DNA of 37,596 nucleotides from Candidatus Thiodiazotropha endolucinida. Lineage in GTDB: Bacteria > Pseudomonadota > Gammaproteobacteria > Chromatiales > Chromatiaceae. Positions 12,614 to 37,234 of the stretch are shown here, piece by piece. The notes under the pieces were generated by a model. That model saw only the letters and a program-made list of their open reading frames with translations. It was not told where the DNA came from and ran no database searches. The DNA is taken from assembly GCF_001715975.1 (NCBI RefSeq), contig NZ_MARB01000032.1:1-37596 (forward strand). Reading direction: 5' to 3'. How positions within the stretch are numbered: position 1 is the stretch's first letter; each line of letters starts with the position of its first letter. Position numbers and translations under genes: made by a program.

Positions 12614-14068
12614 TCAACGTCCCAGTGACTCGCGCAATGCCTTGTAGGCGTCGAAGGCTTGCTCACTCTGTTCCGACGGTGATTCGGATTGCTCAGTCAT
12701 ATCGGCATCGTCCGCCGACCCGGGGATGGACGACTCCGTTGTCAGTGTGGCAGCTGCTGTGCTCATCCGGGGTTGTTTGTCCCGCACCAGCATGTTGGGT
12801 TGCGTGAAGGGCGCGAGGCGTTCCAGAAAATCCATCACTTCGAGCACAGGGGACCCCTTGAAGAAACGTGCCGATGGCACATCCATCCATATCCGGTCGG
12901 CATAGCTGAACAGCTCGTAAGGTTTGTCACCCACCTGATCACGGTCGATATCGAAACCCTCGTAGTCATCCCAGTAGTTGGCCTGCCACAGATTGCGATT
13001 GGCCGTCTTGCCGCCGCCCGACACCGCCACTTGTGTGATATTGCCTTTGAAACTGTTGCCGATCAGATGATTGCCGGTCCAGTCGTTGAGAAACAGCACC
13101 CCGATACCGCTGTAGGCAATCAAGTTGTTTTCAATACGGTTGATGGAGTCCGGCTGAAACGGCGAAACATCGAGATAGAGACCGGTGGCGCAATAGAGCA
13201 CCTGGTTTCCGGTGACCACCACATCGGAGGTCTCCTTGAAACCTATACCCATCCCTGTGGCGCCGGTGGCATGGGCGATGTAGTTGTTTTTCAAATGCAC
13301 GCCGTCGCTGTACATGACGAATATACCGACAGAATTGTTTTCGTAATGGTTGTCTGCAACCTCGTTGTACTGGGAATACATAAAGTGGAGTGAGTAACGA
13401 CCGCCACGTGCGTCGTTGCGTGCGATCAGGTTGTCCCGGGAGTACCAGACCACCGTATCCCTCGAGTTGCGGATGATGTTGTCCGTAATCTTGTTGTCAA
13501 AGCTGTACCAGAGTCGGATGGCATCCCCGCGCACTCCGAGTTCAAGCGGCTTTGAGGAGATGCGATTGCCGCGCACGATATTGTTTTTTGACTGTTGCAG
13601 GTCGATACCGAAGAGGGTGTTATCGATGACATTGTCTTTGATGACATTGAAATCACCACGCACCTGTACCCCGGAATCGATGGTGTTGTGAGATTCACCG
13701 GAGTTGGTCAAATGGAGATTCTTCAGGGTCGCGCCATCGGTTTCCAGGACGATAACCGATCCCTTACCCCCCGCGTCGATGGTAACTTTCCCCTGTCCGT
13801 CTATTGTCAAAGGCTCGCTGATCGTGACCGGTCCCGCATAGGTCCCCGGTGATGGGACAAGGGTGCCGCCGACCTCCGTCTGATCGACTAAGGCCTGGAA
13901 GGATGGAAAGGCTGTCGATTCCGCAAATACCTGAAAACTCTGTAGTGATAGCAACAGCACAATAAAACTATGAATGAAGGATTTTGAATTTTGAATTGAT
14001 GGGTGTGCATGTGCACACAATCCATTAATAAGATGTGAACGCAGTGAACACAACAATTCAACATTCAT
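12614..14068 (-). CDS. nosD: NosD, periplasmic beta-helix protein for CuZ assembly
   Basis: A 484-residue protein of the NosD family. After a signal peptide (hydrophobic residues 32-48, mature part from about AESTAF) come regular right-handed beta-helix coils with many N-rich turns (DNVIDNT, NNIVRGNRI, NKITDNIIRNS, YNEVADNHYENN), then WQANYWDDYEGFDIDRDQVGDKPYE, the conserved NosD C-terminal segment. The final 70 residues are a Ser/Glu-rich tail. NosD works with NosFY in assembling CuZ. The start ATG lies three bases after the nosB stop codon without a good ribosome binding site, and the first 30 residues are atypical for an export signal (see findings). Confidence 0.88.
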   Translation of the reverse strand: MNVELLCSLRSHLINGLCAHAHPSIQNSKSFIHSFIVLLLSLQSFQVFAESTAFPSFQALVDQTEVGGTLVPSPGTYAGPVTISEPLTIDGQGKVTIDAGGKGSVIVLETDGATLKNLHLTNSGESHNTIDSGVQVRGDFNVIKDNVIDNTLFGIDLQQSKNNIVRGNRISSKPLELGVRGDAIRLWYSFDNKITDNIIRNSRDTVVWYSRDNLIARNDARGGRYSLHFMYSQYNEVADNHYENNSVGIFVMYSDGVHLKNNYIAHATGATGMGIGFKETSDVVVTGNQVLYCATGLYLDVSPFQPDSINRIENNLIAYSGIGVLFLNDWTGNHLIGNSFKGNITQVAVSGGGKTANRNLWQANYWDDYEGFDIDRDQVGDKPYELFSYADRIWMDVPSARFFKGSPVLEVMDFLERLAPFTQPNMLVRDKQPRMSTAAATLTTESSIPGSADDADMTEQSESPSEQSEQAFDAYKALRESLGR

Positions 14069-14071
14069 AAT

Positions 14072-15250
14072 TTACTGTTTCAGTTGCTTGAACCTGAGCA
14101 GTGCGGCAACAGCCAAAATCAACGATGTGAGCAGCATCAGGCCAAACCCGATATAGGGATAGGAGTGGGTGGTGAACTGCGCCACCTTGCCATCACCGAA
14201 GACCGTCGGCATGAAGGGCTTGACGGAAAAGGCGCCCATATCGTTCAAGGTATGTCCGTACCACCATAACCATGCGGAGTAATCGATAACGAAAAATACC
14301 GGCAGGGCGATGGGCACCAGTATCAACAACCAGTAGAGCATGCCGCCGTTCCTACGGGAACCGAAAACCACCAGGGCCATGGCGCCCAGAATAGCGTAAA
14401 AGACCAGGTGAATCGCCAGCTCCAGGTTCTTTACCATCGGCACGATCTCTTGCGGATTATTGAAATAGCGTCCCAGACTCTTGGCATAGTGCCACGTCAT
14501 CACCTGAAAGGAGCTGCCGTCCCAGGGCGATAAACTGTCTGATTTCACCTGATCGATATCATAGGTCAGCTTTAGCTGCTCAATCAGATGTGCCTTTTCC
14601 GCACCCGCCGATTTCGTACCGGCCTGCCTGGCCGCTTCCAATTCTGAGGGCAGGATGACCTCGACTCCGGATGCTTCCAGGGAATCCTTCAGCACACCGG
14701 TGACCCCGCCAATCACAATTTCAGGTTCACCGGTTTCCCCCGAGGCTTCCTGGTCCAACGATGTCACCATAGCGCTGACATAACCCTTGTTCTGCAGGTT
14801 GAAACCGTTTTCGCCATAGAGCGTCATCGCCATCCAGGCGGCAATACCGGTAAATCCGACAGTCAACACGATCATGCGCTGCTTCGGCCCGGTGAAGATA
14901 AAGCCGATCAGCATTACGCCAAGGAAGGCCATCAAAAACTGACCGAATCCACGCTCCACAGGGCCGCCGGCCGCGATGGGATACATGCCCACATAGTGGT
15001 TGATGGTATCCATCTCATGTACACAATCCAGTGCCTCGTCTTCGACTATCTCCGCCTTTTCCTGTTTTTCACAGCCGTTGAATACCCCATTCATATGGAA
15101 ATGGATGCGAACTCCGTCCGGGAAGGATTCCTCGGGGTAATTGGGCGCCGTCAACGACACCCACCAGATAGGCGTATAGAAAATCACAGCAAGCAGTCCC
15201 AATCCAATCAGGGTGAGTACTGCAACTTGAAGGGTTTGCTTAGACTGCAT
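14072..15250 (-). CDS. nosB: NosB-like polytopic membrane protein of clade II nos cluster
   Basis: A 392-residue membrane protein with an N-terminal membrane anchor (residues 8-31), a periplasmic stretch, several further hydrophobic segments (about 104-125, 130-145, then four between 280 and 390) and a charged soluble loop in the middle. Position and topology match NosB, the transmembrane protein found between nosZ and nosD in clade II nos clusters, for example in Wolinella. The W-W-Y and HTLNDMGAFSVKPF stretch near residue 335 is notable, but no cofactor motif is obvious. The role in N2O reduction is not established for the family; the call rests on gene order and membrane pattern. Confidence 0.7.
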   Translation of the reverse strand: MQSKQTLQVAVLTLIGLGLLAVIFYTPIWWVSLTAPNYPEESFPDGVRIHFHMNGVFNGCEKQEKAEIVEDEALDCVHEMDTINHYVGMYPIAAGGPVERGFGQFLMAFLGVMLIGFIFTGPKQRMIVLTVGFTGIAAWMAMTLYGENGFNLQNKGYVSAMVTSLDQEASGETGEPEIVIGGVTGVLKDSLEASGVEVILPSELEAARQAGTKSAGAEKAHLIEQLKLTYDIDQVKSDSLSPWDGSSFQVMTWHYAKSLGRYFNNPQEIVPMVKNLELAIHLVFYAILGAMALVVFGSRRNGGMLYWLLILVPIALPVFFVIDYSAWLWWYGHTLNDMGAFSVKPFMPTVFGDGKVAQFTTHSYPYIGFGLMLLTSLILAVAALLRFKQLKQ

Positions 15251-15477
15251 GGCGTATCTCTATGAAAGCGATTCAATTTCCAGTGGTTGGAATGATTGAG
15301 ATAGTGATTTTCAGATTGGGCTGGGGAGTCATGACCAATGCACAGCAGGCGTTTGAACCACCTGTCGGGCATCGCACCTCAGCCTTATCTGAACCTGAGT
15401 CAGACAAGCCCTGCAGAGAGAGGCACCCGTCATGCTGACGGGTTGCCGGTTCAACAGGCCATGTCTGTCAGGCTGGA

Positions 15478-16227
15478 TCAATCGTAGTCCGGATTTTGCC
15501 AATCCTTGGAGGGAGCAACCATATCCTTTGGCACCGGCAGTCTGGATACGTAGTTGATGACCATCTGCATATCCTTGTCGGAGAAGTTTTTGATCTGCTC
15601 CACCATGTCGGGGTTGGCATTGCGGCGTTTCCCGTCACGAATCCACTCGAACTGGCGCAGCATGTAGGCATAGTGCTGTCCGTGAATCTTGGGATAGAAC
15701 TTTTCGTCATCCCCTTCACCGATATCACCATGACACTGCACGCAGTTGTCATCGTACAGCTTTTTGCCTTGTTCGAATTCAGGGAACAGTTTATTCCAGG
15801 GGCCTTTACCGTTTTCCGGGTTCATCGGTAGTTTAGCGATATAGGCGGTGACATCGGCAACCAGTTGCGCGGGATTGATGTCACCCTTATGATAGCCGGA
15901 AGCGGCCATGATCTGCTCGTCCAAGGCAAACGGATACATTGTCGGATTGTCGCGATTCTGGGCGCGAATATCAGCCAACTGCTTGATCAGTACGTTACGA
16001 TGCTGTCCCGCCAATTGTGGGAAGGTACCGTCCGACAGACCCCAACCTTCCAATAGATGGCAGGCCGAGCAGACTTCATAAACTGCAATACCACGCTCAC
16101 GGTCGGGGGTCAGCAGCATCGCTTCATCCTTCTCGCCGCCAGCTTCGTTCCAGCCGGCCAGGGCAGTGCTGCACAAGATTGTTCCCAAAGCGGCGGTCAG
16201 GCTCTTCAACATCGGTTTTACTTTCAT
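15478..16227 (-). CDS. Periplasmic diheme cytochrome c of the nos cluster
   Basis: A 249-residue exported cytochrome: signal peptide (MKVKPMLKSLTAALG to SSTALAG) and two haem-binding sites, CSACH and CVQCH, each followed by a c4-type segment (FPQLAGQHRNVLIKQL and YPKIHGQHYAYMLRQF). The ATG at 16227 is preferred because GGAGAA lies upstream; the longer frame to 16248 adds seven residues. It lies between nosZ and nosB, where clade II clusters often carry c-type cytochromes, and has its own FNR/DNR-type box. It probably carries electrons to NosZ. Confidence 0.85.
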   Translation of the reverse strand: MKVKPMLKSLTAALGTILCSTALAGWNEAGGEKDEAMLLTPDRERGIAVYEVCSACHLLEGWGLSDGTFPQLAGQHRNVLIKQLADIRAQNRDNPTMYPFALDEQIMAASGYHKGDINPAQLVADVTAYIAKLPMNPENGKGPWNKLFPEFEQGKKLYDDNCVQCHGDIGEGDDEKFYPKIHGQHYAYMLRQFEWIRDGKRRNANPDMVEQIKNFSDKDMQMVINYVSRLPVPKDMVAPSKDWQNPDYD

Positions 16228-16374
16228 CGTTCGATTCTCCAGCCCCATGATCTGTCACTGGGGATAGTTCGGATTTGCCACCTTTTCAGGTGTTATAAAT
16301 CAGGTTCTCTTGTGAAGCCAATTCAACCCCTGAAAAGAGATGCTGCAGTGTGTCACAGGCTATATTAGAGCACT

Positions 16375-16388
16375 TTGATATACATCAA
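16375..16388. promoter_or_regulatory. FNR/DNR-type box upstream of the internal nos cytochrome
   Basis: TTGATATACATCAA is a perfect match to TTGAT-N4-ATCAA. It lies between the monoheme and diheme cytochrome genes, centred about 155 bases before the ATG at 16227, implying a secondary promoter within the nos cluster. Confidence 0.7.
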
Positions 16389-16440
16389 CTGCCCCAATTC
16401 GGCATCTTCTGATGCTATCAGCAGCAGATTCACACTGAGT

Positions 16441-16764
16441 TTATAGCGTGCTCAACCAGTCAGCTATCGCACGCATCTCCTCTTCGGTAACAAGTCCCAT
16501 GACACCCTTCATGGCTGCGGTCTGGCCATTACTGCGGGCACCGGATTTGATATCTATCATCTGATTGAAGGCATAGTCGGCATTCTGCCCGGCAAGCTTT
16601 GGATAGATAGGCATAATCGGTGTATTGGCATCTTTACCGTGGCAGGACCAGCAGGTCTTGGTCTTGTAGAGTTCGGCTCCGTCGGCAGCCTGCGCCTGAG
16701 TGGTAATCCCAACAGCAAACAGCAATGCAGCAGATGACAATGCGATTTTAACAATTTTCATCAT
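16441..16764 (-). CDS. Small monoheme cytochrome c
   Basis: A 107-residue cytochrome with a signal peptide (MMKIVKIALSSAALLFAVG to AQAAD) and one haem site, CWSCH, followed by YPKLAGQNADYAFNQM and a C-terminal Met (KGVMGLVTEEEM) as candidate axial ligand. It lies immediately after nosZ and is a likely direct electron donor to the CuA site. The start is the first of two adjacent ATG codons after AGAGGAAA. Confidence 0.85.
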   Translation of the reverse strand: MMKIVKIALSSAALLFAVGITTQAQAADGAELYKTKTCWSCHGKDANTPIMPIYPKLAGQNADYAFNQMIDIKSGARSNGQTAAMKGVMGLVTEEEMRAIADWLSTL

Positions 16765-16906
16765 ATCGATTTCCTCTAGCAAATTAGGGCAATAGTCTTT
16801 ACCGATGGCATAACTCTATTGCAATCTGTAGTTAGACGAATTGAGCTATGTTAAATCAGATTCCTAAAAACCGCTGAAGTTTTATGTGAATTTTGTCCTC
16901 AACGTA

Positions 16907-16930
16907 GAAAGGGGCCAAACGGCCCCTTTC
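16907..16930 (-). terminator. Perfect 10-bp hairpin after nosZ
   Basis: GAAAGGGGCC and GGCCCCTTTC form a perfect ten-pair stem with a four-base loop, 26 bases after the nosZ stop. No T-run follows in the direction of nosZ transcription, so it may stabilise or partly terminate the nosZ mRNA rather than act as a classical terminator. Confidence 0.55.
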
Positions 16931-16955
16931 CACTCTCAGTCAAAGACCTAAAGGA

Positions 16956-19253
16956 CTATTTGACTTTCTTAGCGCCATGCTCCTCGAGGAAGGTCTTGGC
17001 GCGCAGTCCCAGATCAGCCGTCTTGACCTGATACTGCCACCATTGGCCCGCCCATAGAGTGGCGTTCTGAAAGTCACCCTTGGCCGCGAACGTCTCGGAC
17101 TTCTTCTTCGCCTCTTCCGCGAAACCGAGCTGATCGGTGGCATCTTCCACAAGTGCTACAACTTCCGGGAAGTCTTTGTAGTTGTGGCTGGTTATGAAGC
17201 CGACCACAGAGTCGATGACCGCCTGGGTGTCAAGATTGGTCTTGACCTGTTTCTTATAGTCAGCCTCGGTGTACTTCGTTCCCTCCACCATCTGAGTGGT
17301 CTTGGCCACATAACCTTTCGGTTTGACCAGCAGATAGCCCTGCATCTCGAGATGGAGCGCCGAACAGAACTCGGTGCAATAGTAGGGAAAGACGCCAGCC
17401 TTGTCGGCTTTGAAGGTGGCCGATACGGTTTTGCCCGGTTCGATGGAGAGATTCACGTTCTCGTTATAGAGCGCGAAACCGTGGGTCTCGTCCTCAGCTC
17501 GCTCCAGGTTGGTCAGATGGATGGAGACAGTGTCGCCCTCTTCCACCTCGATGATCTCAGGCGTGATGTGGGAACGGATGACCGTACCGTAGACATGAAC
17601 CACACCATTCTCATCCTTCACGACCTTCTCACGTCCCGCACGGGTCTTGTAGGGAGACTTGGAATCGGTACGGCTGTTCCAGCCCGATTTGTAGCGTACT
17701 GCCGGTTTCAGCTTGTCGGCCTTGATCGCCACCACATAGTGGGGTTCGCCCAGTGGCAGCGGCATATCGTAGAGCAGTTGCATCTTATCGCCGCTGATAT
17801 CGATCAGCTGATGGTTCTGCGGATGCAGAGGACCGACAGGATTGAAGCGGTCGATGGCCAGCTTGTTCAGGGAGACCAGATATTTGCCGTCAGGTGAAAC
17901 GGAGTCACCCTCCATCGCTACCAGATGGCCGATATTGTAGTGGATATGCAGTTGATCCAGCACCTTGCCTTCGCAGTAGTCCCACTTGGTAACCATCGAG
18001 TCGACGTAGATCGAGGTATAGACCACGCACTTCTTGGCATCATACTGAGTATGCAATGGACCCAGGCCCACCTGTACTTGGGTATGCAGGGCATCCTTCA
18101 TGGCGATGATCGGGATACCATAGGGGTCTTTGCCTTCGAAATTCTTGTCCTTGATGGCTTTTTGGATCTTCTCCCAGCTGTATACCCAGGCGTGGCTGTC
18201 CAGCTTACCGGAAACGATGATGTGAGTGCCGTCCGGGCTCACATCGACGCCATGCGGGCTCTTGGGTTCGGGGATCAGATAGAGCAGACCCTCTTTGACC
18301 GCCTGATCCATGGGGATCATGTAAGCGCCCTTGGACTTCTTGACCTTGCCGGCGGCAACCAGCTCGGCGGCTTTCTTCCAGTTGGTGATATGCAGGAAGT
18401 CGGTATCTTTCTGAGAACAGCCGGCCTCGAAGGGAGGACGTCCGCGTTCGATACCGCCCACATAACGCTCGGAACAGAAGGAGTTGGTGAAACCCCAACC
18501 CATGGAAGGTCCTTTACCGGCGTCGGAGAGGTCCTGGCTGTAGGGAGGCAGTTCGAAGGTGAATGACTTTTCTGGATCGAGCCGACCCTTCTTGTCATCG
18601 AACTTCCAGTAGGTCACCGCACCCCGGTATTTCTCATTGAACTCTTCGAGCGGTACGAAGTCGTCGCTGAAAGGCGCTGCATATTGAGACGCTTCCATGA
18701 CGTACTCGGTGTTAGGTGTGACGAAGGCGCCACCATGCTCCGATTTCATGAATGGGTTAACAACGATCTGCTTAGTCTCGAAATCGTGCAGATCGATGAC
18801 TGCCATGCGCGGGTTGGCCTTATCGTTGATGAACAGATAGCGGCCGTTGTATTCACCCTCGGTTTCAGAGAATGCAGGGTGATGGGTATCACCATAGGTG
18901 ATATCTTCACCGTTGATTCTGCCCTGTGCCAATACGGCCTTGGATTCATCATCGAATCCATAACCCTGCCAAGGCTCCGGAGTAAACACCGCAATGTACT
19001 TCAGGATCCTCATGGATGGCACACCGTATACGATGACCTGGCCGCTCTGCCCCCCCGAACTGAAGGCCAGATACTCATCCCGCCCGCCGGTCGGTGTATA
19101 GGTTTTGGCGGCTGCCAAGAGGTCCTTTTGCGTCAGGCCACGCTCCTTCATGACCTCTTCTAAGGATGACTGGGCTGAGGCATTGGAAGCGGCGCCCATA
19201 CCGATCCCCAAACCCATTACCAGTGCCGATATGCTTTTCAAGCTCTTGTTCAT
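16956..19253 (-). CDS. nosZ: Nitrous oxide reductase NosZ, clade II (Sec-type signal)
   Basis: The catalytic enzyme reducing N2O to N2 in the periplasm, 765 residues. It carries a Sec signal peptide (MNKSLKSISALVMGLG to SNASAQ) with no twin arginine, which together with the gene order places it in clade II. The seven-bladed propeller shows CuZ histidines in GDTHHPAFS, SEHGGAF, SPHGVDV, GPLHTQYD, YNIGHLVAMEGDS and EPHYVV. The C-terminal cupredoxin domain holds the CuA motif CTEFCSALHLEMQGY. The ATG at 19251-19253 follows GGGACGGGA; an upstream start at 19304 would spoil the signal peptide. The C-terminal 90 residues extend past CuA, as in some clade II relatives. An FNR/DNR-type box lies upstream. 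Confidence 0.95.
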   Translation of the reverse strand: MNKSLKSISALVMGLGIGMGAASNASAQSSLEEVMKERGLTQKDLLAAAKTYTPTGGRDEYLAFSSGGQSGQVIVYGVPSMRILKYIAVFTPEPWQGYGFDDESKAVLAQGRINGEDITYGDTHHPAFSETEGEYNGRYLFINDKANPRMAVIDLHDFETKQIVVNPFMKSEHGGAFVTPNTEYVMEASQYAAPFSDDFVPLEEFNEKYRGAVTYWKFDDKKGRLDPEKSFTFELPPYSQDLSDAGKGPSMGWGFTNSFCSERYVGGIERGRPPFEAGCSQKDTDFLHITNWKKAAELVAAGKVKKSKGAYMIPMDQAVKEGLLYLIPEPKSPHGVDVSPDGTHIIVSGKLDSHAWVYSWEKIQKAIKDKNFEGKDPYGIPIIAMKDALHTQVQVGLGPLHTQYDAKKCVVYTSIYVDSMVTKWDYCEGKVLDQLHIHYNIGHLVAMEGDSVSPDGKYLVSLNKLAIDRFNPVGPLHPQNHQLIDISGDKMQLLYDMPLPLGEPHYVVAIKADKLKPAVRYKSGWNSRTDSKSPYKTRAGREKVVKDENGVVHVYGTVIRSHITPEIIEVEEGDTVSIHLTNLERAEDETHGFALYNENVNLSIEPGKTVSATFKADKAGVFPYYCTEFCSALHLEMQGYLLVKPKGYVAKTTQMVEGTKYTEADYKKQVKTNLDTQAVIDSVVGFITSHNYKDFPEVVALVEDATDQLGFAEEAKKKSETFAAKGDFQNATLWAGQWWQYQVKTADLGLRAKTFLEEHGAKKVK

Positions 19254-19339
19254 TATTTCCCGTCCCCATGGTTGGAAGAGATGCGAGATACCAGATGGCA
19301 TCATTCAGGAATGGTCGCAAAAGTGCGTCATATGACACA

Positions 19340-32867: not shown

Positions 32868-34163
32868 CTACTCCATCATGTCGTTGATGACGTTCTTGAA
32901 CCAGCTGTGAGCGTACTTGACCTCCCGCTTCCGTTGCTCGGCCGATGCATCCATGGGTGAAAGGCCGCCCGAGCCTTTGATGGGCAGAATGGTGTTGGTT
33001 GTTTCGTCGAGGGTGTAGACCGCGGCCACCGATATGCCGTGCTCTTCACCCAGAATGCTGTAGCAGGTGTTGACGAAGGTCGGATCGCCGGGATCCGCGC
33101 CATTGAACTTGGTGATGATGGCGGCGGCGGCGACCTTGGCCTGGGAGTTGGCGGCATAGGCCGATTTCGGCATTTTGGCGGCACTCGACGCGTCGCCCAG
33201 CACGTAGACATCGGGGTGACGCTTCGATTCGAAGGTCCGCTTGTTGACCGGGCACCAGTCACCTTCCACCAGGTCTGAGGCGTAGGCCACCTTGCCTGCC
33301 TTCTGGGGTGGGATGATGTTGATCACGTCAGCGGTGAACTCCTCGACCTCAGCCTGCAGGGTGCGGGTGGAGGGATCGAGCTCCTCCACTATACCGCCGC
33401 CCGCTGCGCCGACCCATTCGATCATGGCGTTATCGGTGCCGAAGCCATAGAGCTTCGACCAGCCCTGCCTGAACAGCCCCTGCTTGGAGAAGGCGTCTTT
33501 GGGATCGAGGATGAGAATCTTCGCCCTCGGTTTATGGTGCTTGCAGTACATCGCAATCTGCGCGGCCCGCTCATAGGGCCCGGGCGGGCATTTGTAGGGA
33601 TTCGGCGGCGCAACGATGATCACTCTCCCCCCTTCCGGCATAGACTCGATCTGCCGCCTCAGGGTGAGTGTCTGAGGACCGGCATACCAGGCGTGGGGAA
33701 TGGTCTCGGAGACCGCTGCATCGTAGCCCTCGATGGCGTCCCACTTGAAGTCCACGCCGGGGGAGACCACGCAGGCATCATATTCGAATGTACCGCTGTC
33801 GACGGTGGCGACCTGCTTGTTTGCCGGCTCGATGGCCGTGACCCTGTCGATGACGATCTCCACACCATGCCGTTTGAGTCCTTCATAATCGAATGTGATG
33901 GAGTCCAGGGTGCGGTCACCGCTCAATACCTCGTTGCTCATGAAACAGGATGTGTACTGTTTTTTGGCCTCGATCAGGGTGACCTTCAGGTTTGGATTCA
34001 GCTTGCGCAGGTACTTGGCGGCAGTGCAGCCCCCTACGCCGCCACCCACTACCACCACCCTGGGAGCGGCTGCCAGGGCAAGGGTTGGAAACATAAGCGA
34101 GGTACCCGCCAGGGTCAGGCCTCCACCCAAGCGGATGAAATCTCTGCGATTGATTTTATTCAT
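32868..34163 (-). CDS. fccB: FccB-like flavoprotein of flavocytochrome c sulfide dehydrogenase
   Basis: A 431-residue periplasmic FAD protein with a twin-arginine signal (INRRDFIRLGGGLTLAG) and an FAD-binding RVVVVGGGVGGCTAAKYLRK. The redox-active cysteine pair of the family is visible in PNPYKCPPGPYERA and GDWCPVNKR, and the FCSD C-terminal domain is present. It oxidises sulfide (or polysulfide) and passes electrons to a diheme cytochrome c, encoded just upstream. It is the last gene of an operon with a nonaheme cytochrome b/c fusion, which is not part of the classical fccAB system. Alternative: a related persulfide or sulfur-redox flavoprotein. Confidence 0.85.
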   Translation of the reverse strand: MNKINRRDFIRLGGGLTLAGTSLMFPTLALAAAPRVVVVGGGVGGCTAAKYLRKLNPNLKVTLIEAKKQYTSCFMSNEVLSGDRTLDSITFDYEGLKRHGVEIVIDRVTAIEPANKQVATVDSGTFEYDACVVSPGVDFKWDAIEGYDAAVSETIPHAWYAGPQTLTLRRQIESMPEGGRVIIVAPPNPYKCPPGPYERAAQIAMYCKHHKPRAKILILDPKDAFSKQGLFRQGWSKLYGFGTDNAMIEWVGAAGGGIVEELDPSTRTLQAEVEEFTADVINIIPPQKAGKVAYASDLVEGDWCPVNKRTFESKRHPDVYVLGDASSAAKMPKSAYAANSQAKVAAAAIITKFNGADPGDPTFVNTCYSILGEEHGISVAAVYTLDETTNTILPIKGSGGLSPMDASAEQRKREVKYAHSWFKNVINDMME

Positions 34164-34185: not shown

Positions 34186-34764
34186 TCAGTGCTGACTGCC
34201 GTAGTAGTGGATCAGTGCGGGCATGGCCTGTTCGCCCTGCTCCTCGATAGCGGCATCCACCTTCCGTTTCATCTTTCTCGGGTAGGGGCGCCGGCCGTCG
34301 ATGAAATCCTGCATGCTGTAGTCAAGATAAGGCATCCACTGACCGGCAAGGGTACCGGAGTCACCCGGACGACCTCCCTCTTCATGGCACTTCTCACAAT
34401 AGCTGTTGTGCAGCTTTTCGCCGAGACTAACCAGTTGCTGATCGGTCTCCTGGGTGTAAAGTCGCAGTTCCTGTTTGGCGAAGAACCAGGCCATGGCCTT
34501 GATCTGCTCGTCGCTGTAGCCCTTGGCGATCCGGTTCATGATGGTGGAGTTGCGCTGGTCACGCTTGTAGGCCTGCATGGCGTCGATGAAAACATCCGGA
34601 TCCATCGCTGCGATGGAGGGACTGGAGGGGCCGACGCTGGATCCATCGGTACCATGGCAGCCGGCGCAGGTGAAGGCCAGCGCCTGGCCCGACGGCCCCG
34701 ACAGGGCAACCGTCGGAAGCAACACCAGTAAAGCCAGGAGTAGATTGCGAACTTTCTTGCTCAT
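34186..34764 (-). CDS. fccA: FccA-like diheme cytochrome c subunit
   Basis: A 192-residue exported cytochrome with signal peptide (MSKKVRNLLLALLVLLPTVALSG) and two haem sites, CAGCH and CEKCH, in c4-like halves. Its size and position 22 bases upstream of fccB match the cytochrome subunit of flavocytochrome c sulfide dehydrogenase. The ATG at 34764 is chosen because it begins the signal peptide; an earlier ATG at 34797 overlaps the previous gene stop as TGATG, indicating coupling. Confidence 0.8.
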   Translation of the reverse strand: MSKKVRNLLLALLVLLPTVALSGPSGQALAFTCAGCHGTDGSSVGPSSPSIAAMDPDVFIDAMQAYKRDQRNSTIMNRIAKGYSDEQIKAMAWFFAKQELRLYTQETDQQLVSLGEKLHNSYCEKCHEEGGRPGDSGTLAGQWMPYLDYSMQDFIDGRRPYPRKMKRKVDAAIEEQGEQAMPALIHYYGSQH

Positions 34765-34796
34765 CGTATCGTTTCTCAACATGTTATCCGCCCCCA

Positions 34797-36779
34797 TCAG
34801 CTTGGTGTGGTCATCAGGCCGATCAGCACCAGGGTTAGCAGGGCCAGACCGGTCATGATCAGCACAGTGGTGATGAAGGAGGCCGCCAGATCTGAACGGC
34901 GCGAGGGACGTCTGACCAGATGCTTGTCCAGTTCCCCGCTCTCAGCCAACCGTTCATATTCGAGACGGTGGTCGTGCTTGAACTCCTCGATGGGGATCTT
35001 ACCGGTGAAGATGGTCGTGCTCATCGGGAAACGCTCAGGCCTGAAGTGCACGTTGAAGAAGTGCACGGAGTTGAGGAAGATGGCCGCCAGCAGCGCCTCC
35101 TCGGCATGGACCAGGGTGGCGATATTGAACATCCAGCCCGGCAGGATGATGGCGGTCGTCTCCGGCGCGAACAGCATGATACCGGATGAACCGATTATCG
35201 CCGCACCCCAGAAGGGTGCCCAGTAGTCGAACTTCTGCCAATAGGTCCAGTGAGTGAACTCGGGACGTGGGCCCAGGCCGATGAACCACTTGAACATGCC
35301 TTTCAGGTCATCCCAATCCTTCCAGTTGGGCAGCATGGAGGTGCTGCCGAACCACTTGAAGCTATCGCGCTTGCTCCAGATGTTGCTGATAGCTATTGTC
35401 AGGTGGGCCAGGAAAATACCCAGCCAGATGACGGCCGCGGTACGATGGATAATACCCTCCATCTCCGTTCCGCCGAGGAACACCACCACGGCCTTGGCCC
35501 AGCCGGTATGCGAAAACAGCAAGGTGGTACCGGTCAGAATCAGGGTCATGGTGGAGATGGCGAACAGCGCGTGGATCCAGAGCCAAACAGTCGGGAATCG
35601 ACGGAAATAGACCACATCCGGGTTATCCAGATCCTCGTTGAAACCTTTACCCTGGATGCGATCCATCACCTCGCGGTAGAGCCACAGCACTACATGAACC
35701 CAGAAGAAGGCCATGACCGAGAAGATCAGCGTCTGCATGAAGATCTTGAAGAACCAGAGACCCGGGTATCTCTCTCTATCGTCCGCATCACCGTGCGGCC
35801 AGAAGGTCAGGAAGTTTTCATTGGCATCTTCATGGCAGATCCTGCAGTTTTCCAGACGATTGTTGGCGTGGATCTCCGATGTCGGATCATCTTCACCCTT
35901 GATCTTGTGGCTGCCGTGACAGTCGTGACACTTGGCGGTATTGGTATAACCGAGTCGATGCACCTGGCCATGATAGGAGTCGAAGTAGGTACGCTGCGCC
36001 TCCTTGTGGCAGTCTCCGCAATTCTTGGTGATCGCCAGCTTGGCCTGATCGGTGTCGGGTGAACTGATGGTATGGGTCGTGTGGCAGTCTGAGCAGACGG
36101 CCGATTCGCTGTCGCCCGCTTCCAGCACCGCCTTGCCGTGGTCGGACTCCCGGTAGTCGTCGAGTTCCTTCTTGTGACACTCGCCACACACCTCCGGGTT
36201 TTTCAGGCGGTGCTCGGCGCGCTGGTGGCTGCCCAGCGTGCCGATGTTGTGGGCATCGTGGCAGTCGTAGCAGGTGGCGTTGGTCTCCGATTGGTCGTGT
36301 TTGTTGGGCAGGGCATGTACCGAGTCGTAAAAGGCATCGATGGTTTCTACCACTACGCCGAGGCGTTCGTACTTCTCGTCGGGATCGCTCCGGTGCTTGT
36401 TCCAGGTCTCCCGGTGGCACTCCACACAGCCGACTACCACCTCCGGTGACTCGCGATGCGGTACTCGCTCGATGGTGGCGTGACAGTGGGTACAGGCCTG
36501 TTCACCGTGCACGCTATCCTCGATCTTTTGCGGGTCCGCGTAGATATCGACGATGGTGCCGTCTTCCCGGGTATCGGTTTTATCATGCGCGTCGCCATGA
36601 CACTTCAGGCAGCGTTTGTTGGGGATGATGCGCTTCCCCGAGACTGGGTCGAAGCCCGGTGGAGGGGTTTCGCCCAAGATGGTCAGATTACCTTCGGCAC
36701 TCTCAACGGGAGTGAAGAAACAGAGGGTTAGAAGAAAAACGAAAATCCAGACTGGCGATCGGGATGCCATGTTCAACAT
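34797..36779 (-). CDS. Nonaheme cytochrome c fused to a membrane cytochrome b domain
   Basis: A 660-residue exported protein: signal peptide (about residues 1-28), a multihaem domain with nine CxxCH motifs (CLKCH, CTHCH, CVECH, CYDCH, CGECH, CSDCH, CGDCH, CHDCH, CRICH) up to about residue 325, and a C-terminal cytochrome b561-like domain with several membrane segments carrying histidines (WVHVVLWLY, WIHALFAIS, HRTAAVIWLGIFLAHLTIAIS, LVHAEEALLAAIFLNSVHFFNVHF). This arrangement suits a quinone-linked electron transfer protein with multihaem wiring in the periplasm. It heads the operon with fccA and fccB, whose genes follow closely. The ATG at 36779 follows GAGGAAA. Terminal partner and direction are unknown. 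Confidence 0.85.
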   Translation of the reverse strand: MLNMASRSPVWIFVFLLTLCFFTPVESAEGNLTILGETPPPGFDPVSGKRIIPNKRCLKCHGDAHDKTDTREDGTIVDIYADPQKIEDSVHGEQACTHCHATIERVPHRESPEVVVGCVECHRETWNKHRSDPDEKYERLGVVVETIDAFYDSVHALPNKHDQSETNATCYDCHDAHNIGTLGSHQRAEHRLKNPEVCGECHKKELDDYRESDHGKAVLEAGDSESAVCSDCHTTHTISSPDTDQAKLAITKNCGDCHKEAQRTYFDSYHGQVHRLGYTNTAKCHDCHGSHKIKGEDDPTSEIHANNRLENCRICHEDANENFLTFWPHGDADDRERYPGLWFFKIFMQTLIFSVMAFFWVHVVLWLYREVMDRIQGKGFNEDLDNPDVVYFRRFPTVWLWIHALFAISTMTLILTGTTLLFSHTGWAKAVVVFLGGTEMEGIIHRTAAVIWLGIFLAHLTIAISNIWSKRDSFKWFGSTSMLPNWKDWDDLKGMFKWFIGLGPRPEFTHWTYWQKFDYWAPFWGAAIIGSSGIMLFAPETTAIILPGWMFNIATLVHAEEALLAAIFLNSVHFFNVHFRPERFPMSTTIFTGKIPIEEFKHDHRLEYERLAESGELDKHLVRRPSRRSDLAASFITTVLIMTGLALLTLVLIGLMTTPS

Positions 36780-36980
36780 TATTATTTCCTCGTGCGTCAA
36801 GTGCACAACCGCTAGAACGAGGCTTATAAATTAAAAAGATCAAACGGAGCCAAAAAGCGGGACTACAGTGCCAAACGGACCTACTATCCGAGCAACTTGG
36901 AGTATCTCGTCCAGTCTTCATACAGGTCAACATCGATTCTGCGACATTCACCAAGTCAAGAGAATTAAGGCGGGCTTGTG

Positions 36981-36994
36981 TTGATCTTGATCAA
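36981..36994. promoter_or_regulatory. FNR/DNR-type box upstream of the nonaheme/fcc operon
   Basis: TTGATCTTGATCAA is a perfect TTGAT-N4-ATCAA palindrome. It lies 200 bases before the nonaheme gene and also about 110 bases before the short plus-strand ORF at 37100. Confidence 0.75.
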
Positions 36995-37099: not shown

Positions 37100-37234
37100 A
37101 TGAATGTAGCACCCATCTTGATCATGGCATCAGCGGTATTTATTTTTGCTGTCACGGCTTTGAGCATCGCCACCATCCTCGGTGTGGCCATAGGCCAGGC
37201 ACGACTTTTCTTTCAAAAGAAAACCCAAGCCTGA
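37100..37234 (+). CDS. Possible 44-residue single-span membrane protein
   Basis: An ATG with GGAG eight bases upstream opens a 44-codon frame: MNVAPILIMASAVFIFAVTA, a short glycine-containing hydrophobic continuation, then the basic tail FFQKKTQA. This is one transmembrane helix with a positively charged C-terminus, typical of small subunits or regulators of membrane complexes. It is divergent from the nonaheme operon and shares the FNR/DNR-type box. No family was recognised. Confidence 0.5.
   Translation: MNVAPILIMASAVFIFAVTALSIATILGVAIGQARLFFQKKTQA

Follow-up and report, generated by a model that had tools for sequence, protein, structure and literature searches.

The window, that is, the whole stretch of 37,596 nucleotides from Candidatus Thiodiazotropha endolucinida, a lucinid-clam symbiont, that was analysed, contains three genes that form a tight operon on the minus strand in the order fusion, fccA, fccB. 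In the preliminary description of this DNA, FccB-like and FccA-like genes were said to accompany a nonahaem fusion gene with overlapping or close junctions, and the gene coordinates agree with this: one base is common to the stop codon of the fusion gene and the start codon of fccA, and the gap between fccA and fccB is 22 bases. An alternative GTG start of the fusion gene at position 36806 would add 9 residues to its product. The features of the locus are the following:

34797-36779, minus strand: fusion gene, encoding 660 residues from the ATG, with nine CxxCH motifs; its product fits the CbcL/MtoC/MtrH type
34186-34797, minus strand: fccA, dihaem cytochrome c subunit of flavocytochrome c sulfide dehydrogenase
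32868-34163, minus strand: fccB, FAD subunit of flavocytochrome c sulfide dehydrogenase
36981-36994: FNR/DNR-type palindrome TTGAT-N4-ATCAA, a perfect match (TTGATCTTGATCAA on the plus strand)
37100-37234, plus strand: divergent open reading frame (ORF) of 44 residues with a single helix, which neighbours the operon in some members of the genus and may encode an accessory peptide

Judged from its sequence, the flavocytochrome half of the operon is of an ordinary kind. FccB contains the Pfam domains PF21706 (FCSD central domain, 158.1 bits) and PF09242 (flavin-binding, 94.3 bits), and its best match in the PDB is 3vrd_B (E 7.1e-139). Its N-terminus is of the twin-arginine type, with a score of 14.3 bits for Pfam TAT_signal, which is below the cut-off. 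The protein has C73, C192 and C367, which, from the literature on 1fcd, we take to be the FAD-linking cysteine and the redox cysteine pair. In an alignment of 47 FccB sequences, both linked and unlinked to a fusion, the two redox cysteines are present in all 47 and the FAD-linking cysteine in 46, the exception being L066. FccA contains two CxxCH motifs, and its best PDB match is 1fcd_C (E 6.1e-49, residues 35-202). The possibility that FccA is a dihaem shuttle of the PdsA type was rejected, as it scores 86 bits with NF049874, far below the cut-off of 330.

Two further FccB copies are present in the genome of the window, away from any fusion gene. Hence, other sulfide routes exist, and sulfide oxidation need not depend on the operon. 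In the same genome, another fccB gene has a multihaem neighbour, being located near the genes for an octahaem cytochrome of PF13447 and for a TPR protein (L050, 6580-10591), and no adjoining FccA-like ORF was seen there. The ordinary fccAB of this genome is adjoined by a gene for an ankyrin-repeat protein (L049, 6817-9903; Pfam). Genes for an ankyrin-repeat protein and a dihaem cytochrome are also present behind fusions of a sister clade (L032, 10012-11845, by Pfam; L066, 8017-9880, by position and a similar start), and the ankyrin-repeat protein is possibly a helper shared by fccAB and the sister-clade fusions.

The fusion protein and its family

The fusion protein is composed of a hydrophobic, signal-like N-terminus, a nonahaem c domain spanning residues ~40-335, and an FdnI-like b-type membrane domain at residues 339-656. 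The CxxCH motifs are at residues 57, 96, 118, 170, 198, 229, 254, 284 and 312. Sequence searches with the fusion gave little: the score of Pfam PF01292 on the fusion is 18.6 bits, below the cut-off of 30.1, the best match in a sequence search against the PDB has an E value of only 0.053, and a profile search returned short multihaem stretches only, the membrane half being without any match.

The fusion was modelled with AlphaFold (pLDDT 79.8, pTM 0.70) from a 51-row alignment consisting of the window and 50 of 80 named loci. These 80 are the top-ranking ones of 574 relatives, and the gene calling lacks the fusion frame in 8 of them. The model contains six transmembrane helices (residues 339-375, 397-421, 438-469, 513-537, 550-578 and 627-656). 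When the model was compared with the PDB by Foldseek, nothing was found below E 0.001. The top match is FdnI (1kqf_C), with E 4.2e-3, a probability of 1.00 and a TM score of 0.75 by target length, followed by the cytochrome b of hydrogenase-1 (4gd3_A; E 0.58, probability 0.97). Five histidines of the membrane half, H403, H445, H558, H573 and H578, are invariant in all 51 rows of the alignment. Of these, H558 and H573 are located in the fifth helix with a spacing of 15, which presumably resembles that of the paired haem ligands of FdnI, and some of the membrane histidines of the fusion probably ligate b-haems.

The make-up of the membrane protein had been regarded as undescribed, a view that is not supported, since it matches published descriptions. 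CbcL of Geobacter is described as having a six-helix di-haem b domain and a nine-haem periplasmic domain (PMC9129911), and the catalogued CbcL/MtoC/MtrH family is characterized by an N-terminal multihaem c domain with 3-23 CX2CH motifs across the family, for which both quinol oxidase and quinone reductase roles are described (PMC6295460). Placed by published description, the fusion fits this family of quinone oxidoreductases, and the idea of a wholly new kind of membrane protein was rejected, the family having already been described (PMC6295460).

Conservation of the pairing with FccAB

A search of 93 relatives revealed some fusion match at E 0.001 in 52 of them, partly other multihaem or cytochrome b proteins. 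Of 210 genomes of the order, 85 contain a fusion match at 1e-120, at 87 places in total. None of these places has an internal stop, and a broken fusion frame was rejected on this ground. As the closest fusions we took the 47 places, in 45 genomes, that score at least 933 bits, a cut chosen after inspection of the table. In 43 of the 47, a same-strand gene for an FccB of the window's subtype (at least 69% identity) follows within 3 kb, which led us to reject a chance neighbourhood. The preliminary description had proposed the neighbourhood of fccAB in related genomes as a check, and this neighbourhood is strongly conserved.

Three of the remaining four cases are cut by contig ends (G158, G222 and G109), and the fourth, G102, runs off its contig. 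In G158, equated with L056 by coordinates, fccA and the start of fccB are present before the contig end, and in G222 and G109, fccA is split across two contig ends and fccB is on the second contig. With the three cut cases included, 46 of the 47 closest fusions have FccB or a broken-off part of it. In the reverse count, 43 of 47 FccB of the window's subtype share a contig with a fusion and two correspond to contig breaks (G222 and G109); as for the other two, G048 has a decayed fusion remnant and G224, a genome that is 80% complete, has no fusion at 1e-120. For the other 40 fusions found at 1e-120, there is no FccB within 3 kb among the matches listed, the nearest one being 8.3 kb away (G056). 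Also among the matches listed, the nearest named record is that of a Ctena orbiculata symbiont, with a fusion of 97% identity, and the fusions of Ca. Thiodiazotropha species come next, with 77-78% identity to that of the window.

Several loci deviate from the common layout. Two genomes of the same genus (G005 and G018) carry two full copies of the operon each, with fusions that are ~60% and 89% identical to that of the window. In genome G025, fccA and fccB are separated by an inserted IscB-like gene with RRXRR and HNH domains (L041, 9971-11263), and the operon of genome G048 looks decayed (L047, 6966-8677), with a four-haem fusion remnant of 200 residues abutting a shortened fccB frame.

A fusion tree of 111 rows was calculated with FastTree; 11 duplicate loci (L002, L003, L031-L034, L041, L043-L045 and L048) and fragments (frames shorter than 560 residues or alignments of at most 400) were left out, and rows outside the linked clade carry long-branch warnings. 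A fusion was considered linked when its locus DNA contained an FccB match, with flanks of up to 1.5 kb for the loci of the 93 relatives and up to 6 kb for the named loci. The linked fusions form a clade of 39 rows, all of them linked, with a support of 92, and this clade, whose own branch is not starred in the tree, contains a subclade of 33 rows with a support of 99. L021 was counted as linked by means of the longer locus L041, in which fccB is located behind the inserted IscB-like gene. The linkage label requires 4 changes on the tree, against 32.9 in shuffles. Two linked rows fall outside the 39-row clade: L066, where fccAB is adjacent to the fusion and divergent, and L071, where fccAB is located ~2.7 kb from the fusion end on the other strand. 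The clade takes in the purple sulfur bacteria Thiorhodococcus and Halochromatium, and Rhodoferax and Ramlibacter are among the named relatives of the fusion.

In the FccB tree (47 rows), the linked FccB are present in two separate lineages, a gamma lineage of 19 rows, one of which is the decayed G048 locus, and a beta lineage of 3 rows, with a support of 100 each. The beta lineage is betaproteobacterial, its FccB are 46-48% identical to that of the window, and in one of its loci (L061) fccAB is divergent from the fusion; its exact placement comes with a long-branch warning. That a single clade of fusions is combined with two lineages of FccB speaks for a working partnership and against shared descent alone, and it seems from the trees that this partnership outlasted an exchange of FccB.

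Most fusions outside the linked clade have no FccB in the locus DNA examined, which indicates that FccAB is one partner among several. These fusions adjoin genes for a dihaem cytochrome and an ankyrin-repeat protein, for octahaem PF13447 proteins, or ORFs with tetrahaem or decahaem motifs, and some of the decahaem-motif ORFs come with an ORF of MtrB size, assignments that are by motif and size only. The fusion therefore looks like a general membrane module that may have exchangeable periplasmic partners.

Promoter site, quinone type and direction of electron flow

The preliminary description had pointed to a perfect TTGAT-N4-ATCAA site upstream of the operon, and it was found there, 201 bp from the ATG of the fusion gene and 105 bp from the start of the divergent 44-residue ORF. 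The window contains 4 perfect matches to this palindrome, against 0.10 expected from 100 shuffles; the further FNR-type sites are at positions 16375, 21456 and 28393. As the palindrome is located between the fusion gene and the divergent ORF, its target gene is not settled by position alone. We screened 34 linked loci that have enough DNA upstream (200 bp or more for the loci of the genus), which are related and not independent, for sites deviating from the palindrome at no more than one position in the upstream 360 bp. Such a site was detected in 26 of them, comprising 21/21 from the genus and 5/13 others, and its position varies among loci. The count does not include the near-copies L003, L051-L054 and L058, nor L024, L066 and L071; L024 has ~126 bp of upstream DNA and no site in that stretch. 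The background is 0.107 sites per kb in 904,094 bases (related loci included), or ~0.04 per 360 bp. The site is lacking in the Thiorhodococcus locus L059 and the betaproteobacterial loci L060, L061 and L076, and the Halochromatium locus L065 has one with one mismatch.

In L012 and L014, which are of the endoloripes and taylori type, a site with one mismatch is retained even though no copy of the small divergent ORF was detected, and this points to the operon as the target. The start and a nearby stop of the divergent ORF are conserved in part of the genus, with 36-100% identity of the products, and no Pfam or NCBIfam match was obtained for it. Distant copies show 26 amino-acid-changing versus 6-9 silent codon differences, so that constraint on this ORF is not proven. 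At 12614-19304 on the minus strand, the window also contains a Sec-type (clade II) nosZ and nosD. The operon had been tied to denitrifying or anoxic growth; within the genus, a link to anoxic growth is plausible from the site at every locus counted and the nos genes in the window, but the tie may not extend in the same way to the loci outside it, where a minority has the site.

The quinone type was addressed by searching 22 genomes of the genus for biosynthesis genes. UbiA is over the cut-off in 22/22 and MqnA/D was found in 0/22. MenD is over the cut-off in 0/22, all 22 having matches far below it that we take to be related enzymes. Among 14 control genomes, MenD exceeded its cut-off in 7 and MqnA/D in 4. 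Menaquinone as the partner of the fusion was rejected on this basis, and ubiquinone is likely the only quinone of the genus, as far as gene content tells. According to textbook potentials, ubiquinol is much too oxidising for the reduction of sulfur. If ubiquinone is, as is likely, the sole quinone, electron transfer from sulfide to quinone is strongly downhill and the reverse transfer is not.

We propose, with a probability of roughly 0.6, that the operon encodes a membrane-anchored sulfide:ubiquinone oxidoreductase assembled from two known modules. FccB, with its FAD and redox cysteines, would oxidise periplasmic sulfide to zero-valent sulfur and pass the electrons to FccA in what may be a physical complex of the three proteins. 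From the two c-haems of FccA, the electrons would enter the nonahaem domain of the fusion, with soluble cytochrome c either bypassed or served in parallel, and from there they would travel through the b-haems of the FdnI-like membrane half to ubiquinone. The wiring of a sulfur-active flavoprotein to the quinone pool, as put forward in the preliminary description, thus probably holds, being supported by the family and fold of the fusion, the conservation of the operon and the two FccB lineages. FdnI reduces quinone on the cytoplasmic side of the membrane, and the modelled likeness of the membrane half to FdnI suggests electrogenic quinone reduction. If ubiquinone were likewise reduced on the cytoplasmic side, proton motive force would be generated, unlike with the peripheral sulfide:quinone oxidoreductase (SQR). 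That the enzyme is such an electrogenic, haem-wired sulfide:ubiquinone oxidoreductase, with sulfide oxidation building proton motive force, is a tentative extension that we hold to be somewhat doubtful.

The nonahaem domain of CbcL is low in potential, and if that of the fusion is equally low, the step from the haems of FccA would be uphill. Flavocytochrome c reduces sulfur in vitro, which would suit a flow from quinol through the fusion and FccA to FccB with reduction of sulfur or polysulfide, an option also raised in the preliminary description. CbcL of Geobacter is described as moving inner-membrane electrons into the periplasm, which is a counter-point to the flow from sulfide to ubiquinone (PMC9129911), and the family survey could not tell the direction from any feature of the sequences (PMC6295460). 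Such reverse running is nevertheless improbable, because the genes for menaquinone synthesis are lacking in the 22 genomes, all of which have UbiA. Moreover, the linked clade holds Thiorhodococcus and Halochromatium, and purple sulfur bacteria live on sulfide oxidation. Quinol might also feed other periplasmic acceptors, with the fusion oxidising ubiquinol, FccA being a mere carrier to, for example, N2O reductase, and FccB joining the cytochrome pool independently. The FNR-type site at all 21 genus loci counted, the nosZ and nosD genes in the window and the multihaem genes (dihaem to decahaem-motif) next to fusions outside the clade would suit this arrangement. We consider it unlikely, though less so than the other alternatives, since FccA is by its match to 1fcd_C a clear FCSD subunit rather than a general carrier, all but one of the 47 closest fusions are accompanied by FccB or a broken-off part of it, and the four loci L059, L060, L061 and L076 lack the site (though L065 has one with a mismatch).

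The electrons could instead be drawn from metal sulfides or from another donor outside the cell, as is thought for MtoC with MtoAB. Several fusions outside the clade are found beside decahaem-motif ORFs and ORFs of MtrB size, as in the family survey (PMC6295460), the linked locus L057 is adjoined by an octahaem-motif ORF on the other strand, and transcripts of fccA and fccB of A. vinosum are up ~175- and 75-fold, respectively, on pyrite (PMC11267869). However, no decahaem-motif ORF is located within four genes of the fusion in 16 named FccB loci, and there is little chance that this explanation applies. Least probable of all is that the fusion and FccAB are merely co-regulated neighbours that work apart. 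It would agree with the absence of FccB from the locus DNA of most fusions outside the clade, but is contradicted by the 43 of 47 intact pairings plus three contig-cut cases, by the one-base overlap of the fusion gene and fccA in the window, and by the association of one fusion clade with two FccB lineages.

Novelty and relation to known systems

In the main texts of the open-licence literature, we found no paper describing the pairing of FccAB with a CbcL/MtoC protein, and the words flavocytochrome and sulfide are absent from the main text of the family survey (PMC6295460). A Nature 2025 study of sulfide oxidation with iron oxide mentions FccBA together with MtrCAB in Rhodoferax and, separately from this, a CbcL homologue in Desulfurivibrio (PMC12545173). 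The earlier view that a complex of this make-up is undescribed is thus correct in part: the family of the fusion is known, but the unit with FccAB was not found in the open-licence literature. What is new, as far as this search goes, is that a CbcL-type protein and FccAB form a stable unit of three genes, the parts being known.

What FccAB does in A. vinosum has been described as unresolved, as fccAB mutants oxidise sulfide at rates like those of the wild type (PMC11267869). A conserved FccAB subtype with its own membrane quinone module offers a testable role, namely that electrons from sulfide enter at the level of quinone, which, if true, would yield more energy per sulfide than entry via cytochrome c. 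The CbcL/MtoC/MtrH family has so far been studied for metal respiration (PMC6295460). If the proposal is true, it would extend from there to sulfur oxidation by symbionts of animals and by purple sulfur bacteria. One membrane module appears to serve several periplasmic partners.

The operon shares with classical FccAB (PDB 1fcd and 3vrd) both subunits, the FAD-linking cysteine and the redox cysteine pair. Classical FccAB, however, is soluble and uses cytochrome c as its acceptor, whereas the operon of the window is headed by a membrane subunit. With SQR it would have the net reaction from sulfide to quinone in common; SQR is a single flavoenzyme at the membrane surface without a haem c wire, in which quinone is in direct contact with the FAD. 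The membrane half of the fusion has, in the model, the fold of FdnI (1kqf_C), but FdnI is a polypeptide of its own that receives electrons from an iron-sulfur subunit during formate oxidation, and the fusion unites a c domain and a b domain in one protein. The greatest likeness is to CbcL of Geobacter sulfurreducens and its family, with nine N-terminal CX2CH motifs, six C-terminal helices and an FdnI/HydC-like b domain, which are likewise taken to be inner-membrane quinone oxidoreductases. The periplasmic part of the fusion, of ~300 residues, is longer than that of CbcL (given as residues 30-279), and a further difference is that the genus of the window seems by its genes to make ubiquinone and no menaquinone. 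Finally, known members of this family go with PpcA, MtrAB/MtoAB or other c-type cytochromes, whereas the fusion clade described here goes with FccAB.
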